A stretch of 64,000 nt of DNA from Cupriavidus taiwanensis. GTDB lineage: Bacteria; Pseudomonadota; Gammaproteobacteria; Burkholderiales; Burkholderiaceae. The notes under the pieces are model-generated. The model was not told where the DNA came from, searched no databases, and was given only the letters and a program-made list of their open reading frames with translations. Both the position numbers and the translations under genes were made by a program. Where the stretch lies: NCBI RefSeq assembly GCF_900250075.1, contig NZ_LT977071.1, positions 2,685,901 through 2,749,900 on the forward strand, written 5' to 3'. Each line of letters begins with the position of its first letter. The first letter of the stretch is position 1. Below, one piece after another: positions 35,283 to 62,960 of this stretch.

Positions 35283-35325
35283 TGTGACAGGTATCACCGA
35301 CGTGGCCGGCATCCCCGCCTAGAAT
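35283..35325 (+). promoter_or_regulatory. Crp-type site and promoter of candidate sRNA 1
   Basis: TGTGA-N6-TCACC at 35283-35298 and a -10-like TAGAAT at 35320-35325. Start-to-start distance is 37 bases; with transcription from about 35332 the site is centred at -41.5, the class II activator position. No open reading frame with a ribosome-binding site follows; a short hairpin RNA unit does. Confidence 0.65.
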
Positions 35326-35330
35326 GCCGC

Positions 35331-35404
35331 GTAACGGTCGTCTACACGGCCGTTAATCCCCGCATTTTCCGCCAGTTGCTCCCCGGGCACTGGCGGCATT
35401 TTTT
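35331..35404 (+). ncRNA. Candidate small RNA 1, Crp-dependent
   Basis: The unit runs from the predicted start near 35331 to the end of a T-run at 35404 (about 74 nt). It has a 9-bp 5' hairpin (35332-35340 with 35347-35355, one G-U pair), a linker 'ATCCCCGCATTTT' (35356-35368), and an intrinsic terminator of 8 bp whose 12-nt loop contains CTCCCCGGGC. The C-rich linker and loop could pair with G-rich ribosome-binding sites. Candidate RNA 2 at 61323-61393 has the same plan and similar loop sequence. I know of no described family matching it from memory. Confidence 0.6.
35369..35404 (+). terminator. Intrinsic terminator of candidate sRNA 1
   Basis: CCGCCAGT (35369-35376) pairs perfectly with ACTGGCGG (35389-35396), followed by CATTTTTT. 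Stem, loop and T-run are all present. The nearest upstream protein gene ends 163 bases before, so the terminator belongs more naturally to the short unit starting near 35331. Confidence 0.8.
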
Positions 35405-35477
35405 GCGTGCTGCGCCAGCCTGCCCTGAGGATGGAACCCGTGGCAGCCACGCCGCCGAGCGCACGGCAGCGTCCGGC

Positions 35478-35642
35478 TCAGTGCATCCAGTAGCCAGCAG
35501 CCAGCGCCACGGCAACGGCAACGGCAACGGCAACGGCAACGGCCAGCACGATAAGGACAGGCACGGTGCGGTTGCGGCGGGCCCGCCGCGGATAGCGATG
35601 GAATTCGCCCAGGCCGCCGTTGGTCAGTTTTTCCCAATCCAT
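35478..35642 (-). CDS. Possible 54-residue single-span membrane protein
   Basis: An open frame from ATG 35642 to TGA 35478 encodes a soluble N-terminus ('MDWEKLTNGGLGEFHRYP'), a basic patch 'RRARRNR', and a C-terminal membrane span built of Val/Ala with the ending 'GYWMH'. The charge pattern predicts the N-terminus in the cytoplasm. The (Ala-Val) run is encoded by GGCAAC hexamers on the plus strand. It lies 131 bases downstream of the outer-membrane protein gene on the same strand, so it could be the fourth gene of the FecR/cyclase operon. The ribosome-binding site is weak. Composition and topology look protein-like, but it may be spurious. Confidence 0.45.
   Translation of the reverse strand: MDWEKLTNGGLGEFHRYPRRARRNRTVPVLIVLAVAVAVAVAVAVALAAGYWMH
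35511..35540. repeat. Hexanucleotide tandem repeat (GGCAAC)5
   Basis: Five perfect GGCAAC units on the plus strand. If the small protein at 35478-35642 is real, each unit adds Val-Ala to its membrane span, so slippage would change span length in steps of two residues without a frameshift. Confidence 0.85.
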
Positions 35643-35773
35643 GAGACGCGCAAAGTTTCCATGTCAGGCGCAGCAGGCGATTGTGGCAGCGCGGGCCGCA
35701 TGAAAATGTGTCCGCCGGCACAATCTCCGCCAGAACCGACTCTGCCTGCGGCATCGCATATTGCCCGCGCCGC

Positions 35774-37123
35774 TCAGAAGTCCATCAGCACGCCGGTGCT
35801 GACGGTGCCGGCACGATAGCGGAACAGGGGGATGGAATCGTCAGATTGCTGGTACAGGCCCTGGATATAGAACGAGAGATCCGGCGCATGGCGATAGGTG
35901 TAGCGCAGCAGGACCTGGCTGAGCACCTGGCGGCGGCGCGTGTCGCCGAACAGCGCGCGAAAGTACGGCTGGCGATCGCGCAGTTCCTGGCGCTGCGCGA
36001 GCGCCACCACCAGGTGGCGCGGTTGTGGCAGCCATGTCAGGGTCGCCAGGATGGCGTAGCCATCGCGGTCGCCGCCAGCGCGCTCGTAGCGCGCGAGGTC
36101 GCGGATGACGCCGACGGCGGCCGACACCTGCAGGTTCGGAGCGAGGTCCAGGCGCCCGCGCAAACGCAGGTCGTGGCGGCGCGCATCGAAGGCATGGCCG
36201 TCGGGATAGCGGTCGAGCGCCATGCTGGTATCGATGCCGACCCGGTAGGGCTTGCCGGCCAGCTGGCGCTCCGGCAGCCAGTAGCCCAGCAGCCCGCTGG
36301 CGCCATACTGGTAAGGCCGCCCGCCTAGCCAGGTATAGCCGAGCGCGGCCTGCCCCTCCACCAGGCCGGCGCCGGTTTCGCGGCCATAGTGGGCGGCCAG
36401 GCTTGCGCCGTACTGGCTATAGTCCTGCCGCTGGGCGTATTGGCGGAGCGAGGCGCCAACGGACACGTTCAACCCTTCGACCCCGCCGGTTCCCCAGTTC
36501 ACGCTGCCGTCCATGCCGGCAAAGCGGTCGGCCTGTGCCAGCTGGGACGGCTGCAGCAACAGGTATGGCACCGGCGCCCCGGGCGCCAGCGGCACCAGCG
36601 GATCCCCCGGGCCATAGTTGGCGTTGGTGGTGTAGCCGGCCAGCAGTGAAATCTGGCCGCGCAGGCGCGGGTCCGGGCGCTTGCATCCGCCCCGCACGTA
36701 GGAGTCGATCAGCACCCGGATGGCCGGCGGCACATCGGTGCCCGCCTGCAGCTGGGAGAACTGCGTGAAAGCGCGTTCGCGCTCGCCCAGTTCGCACAGG
36801 GCAATGGCGATATCGAGCCGTGCGCCGGCGTGCGGCAGGGGCAGCCGCTCGACATCGAGCAGCAGCTGCCGCGCCGCGTCGAAGTCGCCGTCGCGCATCG
36901 CGCCATGGACGCGCTGGTAGAAGGACTCGTAGGCGCCGCCCGCGTCGAAGGCCGCCGCCGGCAAATCTGCCCCCATGCCCGCGGGGGATCCCGGCTGGTG
37001 CGGCGCCGCCCGATCGGGCATGGCCGGCCGCGCGGGAAGCAACGGCTGGGCCGCGGCACCGCACGCCCACACCAGCATTGCGCACAGACTCGCCCGCGTG
37101 CACCGGGCACGCGCATCACGCAA
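35774..37123 (-). CDS. Outer-membrane protein: TPR-like N-terminus plus beta-barrel
   Basis: A 449-residue exported protein. The start is uncertain: TTG 37123 gives a basic N-terminus and hydrophobic core ending 'ACGAAAQ', and overlaps the cyclase stop by 8 bases, fitting coupled translation; ATG 37078 would leave too short a signal. After a Pro-rich linker come helical repeats (about 55-145; 'RDGDFDAARQLLLDVERLPL'), then alternating amphipathic strands with many Tyr/Gly and a C-terminal aromatic 'GVLMDF', typical of barrels. The layout resembles SLAM/DUF560-like proteins, but I cannot assign that family with certainty. It is third in the FecR/cyclase operon. Confidence 0.7.
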   Translation of the reverse strand: MRDARARCTRASLCAMLVWACGAAAQPLLPARPAMPDRAAPHQPGSPAGMGADLPAAAFDAGGAYESFYQRVHGAMRDGDFDAARQLLLDVERLPLPHAGARLDIAIALCELGERERAFTQFSQLQAGTDVPPAIRVLIDSYVRGGCKRPDPRLRGQISLLAGYTTNANYGPGDPLVPLAPGAPVPYLLLQPSQLAQADRFAGMDGSVNWGTGGVEGLNVSVGASLRQYAQRQDYSQYGASLAAHYGRETGAGLVEGQAALGYTWLGGRPYQYGASGLLGYWLPERQLAGKPYRVGIDTSMALDRYPDGHAFDARRHDLRLRGRLDLAPNLQVSAAVGVIRDLARYERAGGDRDGYAILATLTWLPQPRHLVVALAQRQELRDRQPYFRALFGDTRRRQVLSQVLLRYTYRHAPDLSFYIQGLYQQSDDSIPLFRYRAGTVSTGVLMDF

Positions 37124-61862: not shown

Positions 61863-61889
61863 TCCCCGTCGAGCCGTGCTTTGCATCAC

Positions 61890-62204
61890 GGTCTTTTTCG
61901 TTGGTAAAGCAAAAACCTCAATACACAGACCAAGGCAGTATTGCTATCGATGCGCCCATGCCCCGGACACATCGTTCGGACATTGCCGGCACAACATGGT
62001 GCCCGCAATCGCGGCCCCGCTCATCACCCAAACATGGGTAACCTGCGCGTCGCCGAAATTCGGTATTGACATGGCATGTTTGCCATAACAGATGAATTTG
62101 CAATAAATCTCAGACGAATTATTAAAGTCATTTCGTCAGAAAAGCAAGACAACTTGCCGCGAGTTCGATAGACACCCCACCAAAGGGGACGGCGGCGGCA
62201 ATGC
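61890..62204. other. AT-richer intergenic stretch
   Basis: No gene, repeat or convincing hairpin seen. The stretch 62080-62150 is clearly richer in A/T than the surroundings ('GAATTTGCAATAAATC', 'GAATTATTAAAG'), which may mark a promoter for the minus-strand small gene or a trace of transferred DNA. Confidence 0.5.
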
Positions 62205-62248
62205 TGTGACACCTGTCACATCCCCGTGCGCATGCCATCGGCTAGCCT
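62205..62248 (+). promoter_or_regulatory. Crp-type site and promoter of the HTH gene
   Basis: TGTGA-N6-TCACA at 62205-62220 and TAGCCT at 62243-62248; here the start-to-start distance is 38, one more than at the other promoters. The predicted transcript starts near 62255, 45 bases before ATG 62300. Confidence 0.6.
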
Positions 62249-62299
62249 TGCCTTTCGACAGGTACGCACCACCCGGTGCGCTTCTCAGGGCAAGACGAC

Positions 62300-62674
62300 A
62301 TGCATGAGGTGGAGTTCATCGAGTACGAGGGCCGGCGCTTCGTGCTGGTTCCCGAGCGGACGTGGAAGGACATCAGGGGCTGCATCCAGCGGCTGCTGGA
62401 GGAAGCGGGAAAGGATGCCGGTACCGCGGCTTCGTTCTGCCCGCCACTGCTGGTGCAGGCCGCGATTTCCGCCGGCAGCTCCGAGCTGCGCGCATGGCGC
62501 CGCTTTCGCGGCTTGCCGAGTTCTCAACTGGCCGAGCGCGTCGGTGTAACGCGCGCCTATATCTCGATGATCGAGACCGGCCGCCGCCGGCCCGCCGCCG
62601 ACTTGCTGAGCCGGCTTGCGCGCGAACTCGAGATCCCGGTCTGCGCACTGGCAACGAGCCACGGCGCCGGGTAG
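62300..62674 (+). CDS. XRE-type helix-turn-helix protein
   Basis: A 124-residue putative DNA-binding protein. The N-terminal 35 residues ('MHEVEFIEYEGRRFVLVPER') look like a small antitoxin- or dimerisation-type beta unit, and a Cro/CI helix-turn-helix lies at about 62-115 ('LRAWRRFRGLPSSQLAERVG', 'TRAYISMIETGRRRPAADLL'). AGGG lies nine bases before ATG 62300. No toxin partner is adjacent. It precedes the large secreted-protein gene on the same strand by 286 bases and could regulate it (inference). Confidence 0.78.
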   Translation: MHEVEFIEYEGRRFVLVPERTWKDIRGCIQRLLEEAGKDAGTAASFCPPLLVQAAISAGSSELRAWRRFRGLPSSQLAERVGVTRAYISMIETGRRRPAADLLSRLARELEIPVCALATSHGAG

Positions 62675-62960
62675 CGCGTCACGCCAACGGCGCGTTGGCG
62701 TCGTTCTCCACCGCAAGCGTTTCGGCGCACCGATGCACGGCCTCTGCCTTTGCGCGTTTTTGTGGCCCCAGTCACTGATTCGACGTGCGCATTTCCGGAT
62801 ACTGCCCCCGACGCGTTTTGCAGCGTGTCGCAGCCTGCACTGCCAATGTCGTTGACCTTGCAGGCTGCAACGGAAGCGAGATCCGGATTTCGTACTGGCC
62901 CGCGCCGCGGGACGGCAGGCCGAAGTCCAGATCGCTTGTTTTTATTCCCAGGAGAACACT
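62675..62960 (+). other. Leader region of the secreted-protein gene
   Basis: 286 bases without a protein gene. It contains a degenerate Crp-type site (62761-62776) with a -10-like GATACT at 62798-62803 and, near the end, the ribosome-binding site of the gene at 62961 (AGGAGA). From the predicted start near 62810 the leader would be about 150 nt. Confidence 0.5.
62761..62803 (+). promoter_or_regulatory. Weak Crp-type site before the secreted-protein gene
   Basis: TGTGG-N6-TCACT at 62761-62776, one mismatch in each half-site, with GATACT at 62798-62803 exactly 37 bases from site start. The geometry is that of the stronger sites; the sequence is poorer. Confidence 0.4.

Follow-up and report, generated by a model that had tools for sequence, protein, structure and literature searches.

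A stretch of 64,000 nucleotides from Cupriavidus taiwanensis (NCBI RefSeq assembly GCF_900250075.1, contig NZ_LT977071.1, positions 2,685,901 to 2,749,900; hereafter the window) contains the gene of a Crp-like regulator surrounded by palindromes of the type TGTGA-N6-TCAC. Most work on Crp treats it as a global regulator. A sequence-only reading of the window had proposed a Crp-type regulon with class II spacing clustered around its regulator. The present analysis supports this proposal, and the arrangement recurs in other genera with other gene orders. We consider it quite probable that the window encodes a self-contained Crp regulon, in which a cyclase, probably tuned by a FecR-domain protein, would supply a cyclic nucleotide to a Crp-like activator of the class II promoters of coat genes, secretion genes and small RNAs.

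The motif TGTGA-N6-TCAC has 13 strand matches in the window versus 0.27 expected, and none of 100 shuffles reached 13. The seven sites listed previously were all found (35283, 40512, 54700, 56553, 57837, 61274 and 62205), whereas an eighth, at 54722 (TGTGAGGTGGGTCACG), was absent from that list. The weak site reported at 62761 (TGTGGCCCCAGTCACT) matches its earlier description and is supported by conservation, as the site and its GATACT hexamer are identical in C. alkaliphilus (G432) and in the congeneric genome G013. All five copies of the full palindrome TGTGA-N6-TCACA in the genome of 6,767,478 bases lie inside the window. The shorter motif occupies eight places in the window and 11 outside, and the latter are mostly at background level, given the eight strand matches of a backward control in the whole genome. 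The spaced motif TGTGAY-N4-RTCAC-N22-BANNNT has eight perfect directed matches in the genome, seven of which lie in the window, at six sites.

The class II promoters of Escherichia coli CRP have half-sites TGTGA and TCACA centred at -41.5. In the window, a -10-like hexamer starts 37 bases from the first base of the 16-mer at six of the eight promoter-associated sites and 38 bases from it at the other two. The hexamers at 37 are TAGAAT upstream of a predicted small RNA (small RNA 1; 35283..35325, plus strand), CAGAAT upstream of the type I secretion operon (site 54700..54715, minus strand; hexamer 54673-54678), TATGGT upstream of the glycosyltransferase gene at 56604 (site 56553..56568, plus strand), TACGCT upstream of a presumed operon spanning 57920-61315 (57837..57879, plus strand), TATAGT upstream of small RNA 2 (61274..61316, plus strand), and GATACT at the weak site before the RTX gene (62761..62803, plus strand), whose relatives have full class II sites upstream. 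The promoter of a helix-turn-helix (HTH) gene (62205..62248, plus strand) has TAGCCT at 38; its counterpart in G013 has a spacer shorter by one base, which gives 37. These offsets agree with those claimed previously, except at the site preceding the regulator gene (40512..40527, plus strand), which was identified by motif, matrix and alignment and points to autoregulation. The hexamer TTAGCT quoted there at 37 lacks the consensus A of the -10 element, and TAGCTT at 38 is a better fit. The predicted transcription starts are 35332, 40561-40562, 54666, 56602, 57886, 61323, 62255 and 62810.

Two of the palindromes can also be read in the opposite direction. On the minus strand, the site at 40512..40527 precedes the FecR and cyclase genes, with CATCAT at 37 (hexamer 40485-40490), and that at 56553..56568 precedes the glycosyltransferase gene at 55322..56479, with GAGACT at 37 (hexamer 56526-56531). 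Both are probably divergent promoters, which the sequence-only reading overlooked. The additional site at 54722..54737 (minus strand) lies upstream of the type I secretion promoter, with its centre at about -63.5, and is present in G432 and G013. Just 3' of the start predicted for type I secretion, at 54644-54660, lies a further palindrome, TGTGA-N7-TCACA, which both C. alkaliphilus and G013 retain and which is possibly a second operator.

The geometry is conserved beyond the window. At the orthologous promoters of seven sites in G432 and G013, half-sites and hexamers are kept while the 21-base spacers drift. In relatives, 44 sites were found in 18 fetched stretches, and the main offset count was restricted to 26 of them, which come from ten stretches of the module in Paraburkholderia, Caballeronia and Allopusillimonas. 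Read in one direction or both, 25 of these 26 sites have the pattern.A...T at 37. Counted by direction, the pattern occurs in 30 of 52 at 37, in 1-5 at offsets 35, 36, 38 and 39, and in 0-8 at the other offsets from 16 to 61; the control frequency at positions displaced by 5-60 bases around these sites is 9.6%. The figure of 25 of 26 is strong, yet it does not represent 26 independent events because the Paraburkholderia promoters share ancestry. The 18 sites outside the main count belong to pieces of the module on other contigs, to a second cluster of P. unamae and to other clusters of G013; eight of them have the pattern at 37.

A matrix trained on 30 directed promoters from outside the genus with.A...T at 37, in which the hexamer part was thus selected, was used to score both directions at every palindrome. 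Its ten best scores in the window are 56553+, 54715-, 61274+, 40527-, 56568-, 62205+, 40512+, 35283+, 62761+ and 57837+, which include all eight sites noted previously. No score of at least 12 was obtained in 400 kb of background from the same genome (20 stretches of 20 kb), and none of at least 14 in bases 1-35000 of the window, which bears out the earlier remark that paired sites are lacking from the first 35 kb. A chance origin of the sites is rejected by the shuffles, the confinement of the palindromes, the matrix background and the distribution among genomes. The same matrix gives a score of 16.6 to a candidate site at 35722 on the minus strand (TGTGCCGGCGGACACA).

The promoters travel with their genes. 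In relatives, sites accompany the genes of the regulator, FecR (offsets 36-38), type I secretion, the glycosyltransferase at 56604 and the RTX protein, and CAGAAT lies at 37 upstream of the type I secretion gene in all nine genomes shown. A Crp site also precedes the regulator gene in Allopusillimonas, Caballeronia and four Paraburkholderia. Paraburkholderia shares the genes of the module (those of type I secretion, Wzm/Wzt, ManC, glycosyltransferases and RTX) but not their order. The regulator was found at E <=1e-30 in two of 36 genomes of the genus, and the regulator or its relatives in 31 of 399 genomes of the order, the C. taiwanensis genome being included in both counts. The perfect spaced matches number 8 in G000, 11 in G013, 7 in G449 and 8 in G456, with 7, 8, 7 and 7 of them in the module, while the other 56 genomes of the genus have 0-2 each and ten in total, in nine genomes. 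In C. alkaliphilus, counterparts of all eight window places of TGTGA-N6-TCAC lie on one contig, and five more lie elsewhere.

The description of the regulon as local holds for the five full palindromes and for seven of the eight spaced matches, and it has to be amended for one remote gene. The site C2:1346482 (TGTGATGCCCGTCACG, with TAACCT at 37) lies 1.37 Mb from the window, and a GT2 glycosyltransferase gene has its start codon 144 bases after the first base of the site. The protein is in one region 35% identical to the GT2 glycosyltransferase encoded at 60257. Both promoter elements are kept in G013, and in C. alkaliphilus the site is kept with TAAACT at 36. The remote glycosyltransferase is therefore a predicted member of the regulon. 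A site elsewhere that is common to three genomes (TGTGATGCACGTCAC) was not accepted as a member. It has CACCGC at 37 and looks like coding sequence, since its conservation is uniform.

Two of the promoters lead into short non-coding units, which had been recognized previously as non-coding targets of Crp sites and appear from their sequence to be discrete, conserved, terminator-bounded RNAs of about 72 nucleotides. Small RNA 1 (35332..35404, plus strand, about 73 nucleotides) and small RNA 2 (61323..61393, plus strand, about 71 nucleotides) are both predicted to form a 5' hairpin, a C-rich linker and a terminator, with folding z-scores of -4.8 (35332-35410) and -5.0 (61323-61395). Four of 60 genomes of the genus (G000, G013, G449 and G456) contain both small RNAs, and there is one more partial match of 31 bases to small RNA 1. 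It is rather unlikely that the units are mere short leaders or terminated noise of strong promoters. Consistent with such an origin, Rfam searched at gathering scores gave no match in the window, and no target of either RNA stood out among 34 leaders of the module (best z -2.0, for small RNA 2 on the RTX leader, relative to mononucleotide shuffles). However, 71 of 71 columns of small RNA 2 and 66 of 73 of small RNA 1 are invariant across the four genomes, compared with 13 of 70 and 10 of 70 in the downstream flanks. Furthermore, class II sites are followed by similar terminator-bounded units of 68-75 nucleotides in Caballeronia (L144:19454), Paraburkholderia LEh10 (L146:14198) and P. tagetis (L149:9773), and by a unit judged similar by eye, with a weaker T-run, in P. 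unamae (L150:665). These units were chosen from 12 sites of relatives, and none was chosen in P. franconis or Allopusillimonas.

The regulator (40585..41322, plus strand, 245 residues) belongs to the Crp/Fnr superfamily, with a cyclic-nucleotide-binding domain (PF00027, 1.8e-20) and an HTH_Crp_2 domain (PF13545, 2.3e-08). The earlier observation that it carries the DNA-reading residues of CRP is confirmed by alignment: its recognition helix SRETVSR corresponds to SRETVGR of CRP, with R180, E181 and R185 kept. It is not a CRP orthologue, since it is 22% identical to E. coli CRP and scores 64.6 bits against NCBIfam NF008732, which has a curated cut-off of 266. The cAMP contacts of CRP are made by G71, E72, R82, S83, T127 and S128. 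All of these except T127 are kept in the regulator, and cAMP is therefore its likely ligand. Second Crp-like genes, 29-32% identical to the window regulator, were observed in three Paraburkholderia (L141:7074-7736, L146:13306-13962 and L149:10299-10985), each in the same stretch as an RTX gene.

The sequence-only reading overlooked two genes divergent from the regulator, which are likely to constitute the input of the circuit. One encodes a FecR-domain protein (39032..40387, minus strand; PF04773, 2.5e-11). The other encodes a CHASE2-domain protein with a class III nucleotidyl cyclase domain (37116..39044, minus strand; PF05226, 1.7e-44, and PF00211, 1e-15), and its probable TTG start overlaps the end of the FecR gene. 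Class III adenylate cyclases use two metal-binding Asp residues, a substrate-binding Lys with Asp or Thr, and the transition-state residues Asn and Arg; the Lys/Thr pair indicates ATP as the substrate. The window protein aligns to the adenylyl cyclases 6fht, CyaC (1wc0) and CyaB (3r5g) and retains the metal-binding Asp residues together with the Lys, Thr, Asn and Arg, the Lys and Thr being aligned to those of CyaC and CyaB. It is thus predicted to be most likely a producer of cAMP. In the 20 closest of 71 relatives' regulator loci (L066-L085), a cyclase match and a FecR gene each occur in 16 and Wzt in 14, whereas the remaining 51 loci (L086-L136) have a cyclase match in 13 and FecR in none.

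Bcam1349 of Burkholderia cenocepacia is a member of the CRP/FNR family. It activates an exopolysaccharide gene cluster, and its binding to DNA is enhanced by cyclic di-GMP (c-di-GMP) (PMC3584217). By analogy, the palindromes of the window could be class II operators of a regulator that responds to c-di-GMP, with the cyclase serving some other purpose. We regard this as unlikely, because the enzyme linked to the regulator in 16 of the 20 closest loci is a nucleotidyl cyclase and not a diguanylate cyclase, and because the residues that contact the phosphate of cAMP are kept.

Based on the sites, their spacing and the linked genes, a mechanism of the self-contained regulon can be proposed. The CHASE2 cyclase, probably tuned by the co-encoded FecR protein, would make a cyclic nucleotide, most likely cAMP, which would activate the adjoining Crp-like protein. 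The activated protein would bind TGTGAY-N4-RTCACA centred at about -41.5 and, acting as a class II activator, recruit RNA polymerase. In this way it would drive its own gene and probably also the divergent FecR and cyclase genes, forming a positive feedback. Its other targets would be the type I secretion genes, the glycosyltransferases, the DUF4214-RTX protein, the XRE-type HTH protein and the two small RNAs. The output would be a glycan coat exported by an ABC transporter and an RTX protein held in or on this coat.

The position of the palindromes also fits a regulator that is chiefly a repressor, since a palindrome centred at -41.5 covers part of the -35 region and could block the polymerase until the nucleotide or the state of the cell removes the protein. 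This is very unlikely, because a repressor site would tolerate shifts, whereas the constant spacing of 37 bases to degenerate -10 elements (CAGAAT, GATACT and TATCGT) in several genera is what contact with the polymerase requires. Least probable of all is that another Crp/Fnr protein of the cell binds the sites and the local regulator is a bystander: the genome encodes six further distant matches to the regulator, no separate search for Fnr-type proteins having been made, but the three of these matches that can be aligned through the recognition helix have SRQTV or SRQRA instead of RETVSR, and most of the spaced sites lie in the module and in genomes that carry it.

Several observations weigh against the self-contained regulon. 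The regulator is only distantly related to CRP at 22% identity, and T127 is replaced by Ala. No cyclase match was found in four of the 20 closest loci, of which L073 has FecR only and L083 has neither gene; in L067 and L075 little DNA is available upstream of the regulator, and this shortage does not explain L073 and L083. The C. taiwanensis genome encodes three PF00211 cyclases, two besides that of the window, and the messenger therefore need not be private. Neither motif nor matrix gives a separate site for the genes of Wzm, Wzt, ManC and two glycosyltransferases (41286-50230), which would require read-through from the type I secretion promoter. In relatives, the strand matches of TGTGA-N6-TCAC and of its backward control number 42 and 9 in G013, and 62 and 7 in P. 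unamae (G436), and many of the G013 and Paraburkholderia sites fall outside the module, some of them flanking further DUF4214/RTX genes. A strictly local regulon thus holds for this genome and not for the family. DUF4214/RTX genes away from the module with TGTGA-N6-TCAC nearby were seen at L154:647-6406 (P. unamae contig C20) and L155 (G013 contig C1), where some of the sites have a hexamer at 37. One of the other cyclases of C. taiwanensis, a separate protein of 1156 residues (C2:1335962-1339432), is encoded about 10 kb from the remote site. Neither the FecR nor the Crp protein of the window was found by tblastn in the 34-kb stretch around it, and the proximity was taken as coincidence.

The components are of known kinds: Crp/Fnr regulators, class II promoters, CHASE2 cyclases, FecR proteins and Crp-controlled small RNAs. 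New is their packaging, in which the probable source of the messenger, its receptor, the operators, the structural genes and the small RNAs share one island. No such package is described in the titles and abstract openings of the open-access literature surveyed, which likewise yielded nothing pairing CHASE2 with Cupriavidus, DUF4214 with type I secretion and polysaccharide, or a cAMP receptor protein with Paraburkholderia, exopolysaccharide and adenylate cyclase. One paper, PMC9239204, does mention CHASE2 and FecR. CyaR and Spot 42 are small RNAs controlled by CRP and resemble those of the window in lying under a Crp site; the window RNAs differ in travelling with the module, and the relationship was checked through Rfam only, with no matches. 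E. coli CRP shares the half-sites and the R180-E181-R185 helix residues, but its regulon is global, whereas that of the window is nearly private, and the window regulator falls below the NCBIfam cut-off for CRP.

The nearest described circuit that we found is that of Clr in Sinorhizobium meliloti, a cAMP-dependent Crp-type regulator of polysaccharide genes with the CHASE2 cyclase CyaD1 and a FecR-domain protein, SMc02177, that has a predicted Clr box (PMC5498481). The two circuits have in common the Crp-type regulator, the CHASE2 cyclase, the FecR-domain protein and the polysaccharide genes. They differ in that the Clr box is TGTTN8AACA and Clr targets lie on the chromosome and pSymB (PMC5498481), whereas the window has TGTGA-N6-TCACA, targets around the regulator, fixed class II spacing, and type I secretion genes and small RNAs among the targets. 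Bcam1349 with Bcam1330-1341 is similar in placing a regulator over an exopolysaccharide cluster; it is set apart by its description, and not by sequence comparison, as answering c-di-GMP, and the part of the description available mentions no cyclase-FecR pair (PMC3584217).

The packaging of receptor, probable cyclase, operators, genes and small RNAs, with few sites elsewhere in this genome, offers a direct way to test how a diffusible messenger achieves specificity and how a ready-made regulon spreads, and the circuit predicts the promoters and starts of a glycan/RTX surface system to the base. We speculate, with more doubt than confidence, that the locus is a second-messenger island, both mobile and insulated. 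In it, the CHASE2/FecR cyclase might report the state of the envelope to its own Crp through a locally used nucleotide, with a self-feeding loop through the bidirectional palindrome at 40512, and the C-rich small RNAs, perhaps acting as anti-Shine-Dalgarno sequences, might silence competing genes of the envelope or of motility during assembly of the glycan/RTX coat. Such an island might have spread among Betaproteobacteria, its operators following the genes through rearrangement.

The minus strand encodes a PrtD-type type I secretion ABC transporter (52810..54582; TIGR01842, 7.5e-226), an HlyD-type adaptor (51455..52798; TIGR01843, 2.3e-122), a TolC-like outer membrane protein (49956..51458; PF02321, 6.5e-53), a ManC-type mannose-1-phosphate guanylyltransferase/isomerase (48470..50230; PF00483, PF01050), a Wzm-like polysaccharide ABC exporter permease (47656..48525; PF01061), a Wzt-like ATPase with a Wzt_C domain (46374..47678; PF14524, PF00005), a methyltransferase with a DUF4214 domain (44786..46486; PF13489, PF13946), a glycosyltransferase (43764..44876; PF00534) and a two-domain glycosyltransferase (41286..43715; PF13692, PF00534, PF13439). 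A further glycosyltransferase gene (55322..56479, minus strand; PF00534) is divergent from that at 56604..57821 (plus strand; PF00534), which would have almost no leader if transcription begins at 56602 as predicted. On the plus strand follow genes of a DUF6311 protein (58128..60260; PF19830), a GT2 glycosyltransferase (60257..61315; PF00535), the XRE-type HTH protein of 124 residues (62300..62674; PF01381, 1.9e-12) and the DUF4214-RTX secreted surface protein (62961..64000, continuing past the window to L030:2249; PF13946, PF00353). The likely product predicted from these genes is a glycan exported via Wzm/Wzt, with ManC supplying GDP-mannose, together with a DUF4214-RTX protein secreted by the PrtD-type system. 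The predicted coat may resemble S-layers of RTX proteins anchored to a glycan, of which that of Caulobacter is an example.

DUF4214 is found in both the methyltransferase (44786-46486) and the secreted RTX protein (62961 onward), which suggests a joint glycan-related role. The first reading frame after the promoter at 57837 encodes 76 residues (57920-58150) and has no Pfam match. The RTX leader contains an inverted repeat (62831-62868), near perfect in C. alkaliphilus, that is perhaps an mRNA-stabilising hairpin. Two intergenic repeats judged similar by eye, at 55085-55205 and 61470-61575, flank the genes at 55322-61315; they are REP-like and contain CTCTCCCGCTTGCGGGAGAGG and an adjoining GCTCGCACGCGTTGTCGC stretch.

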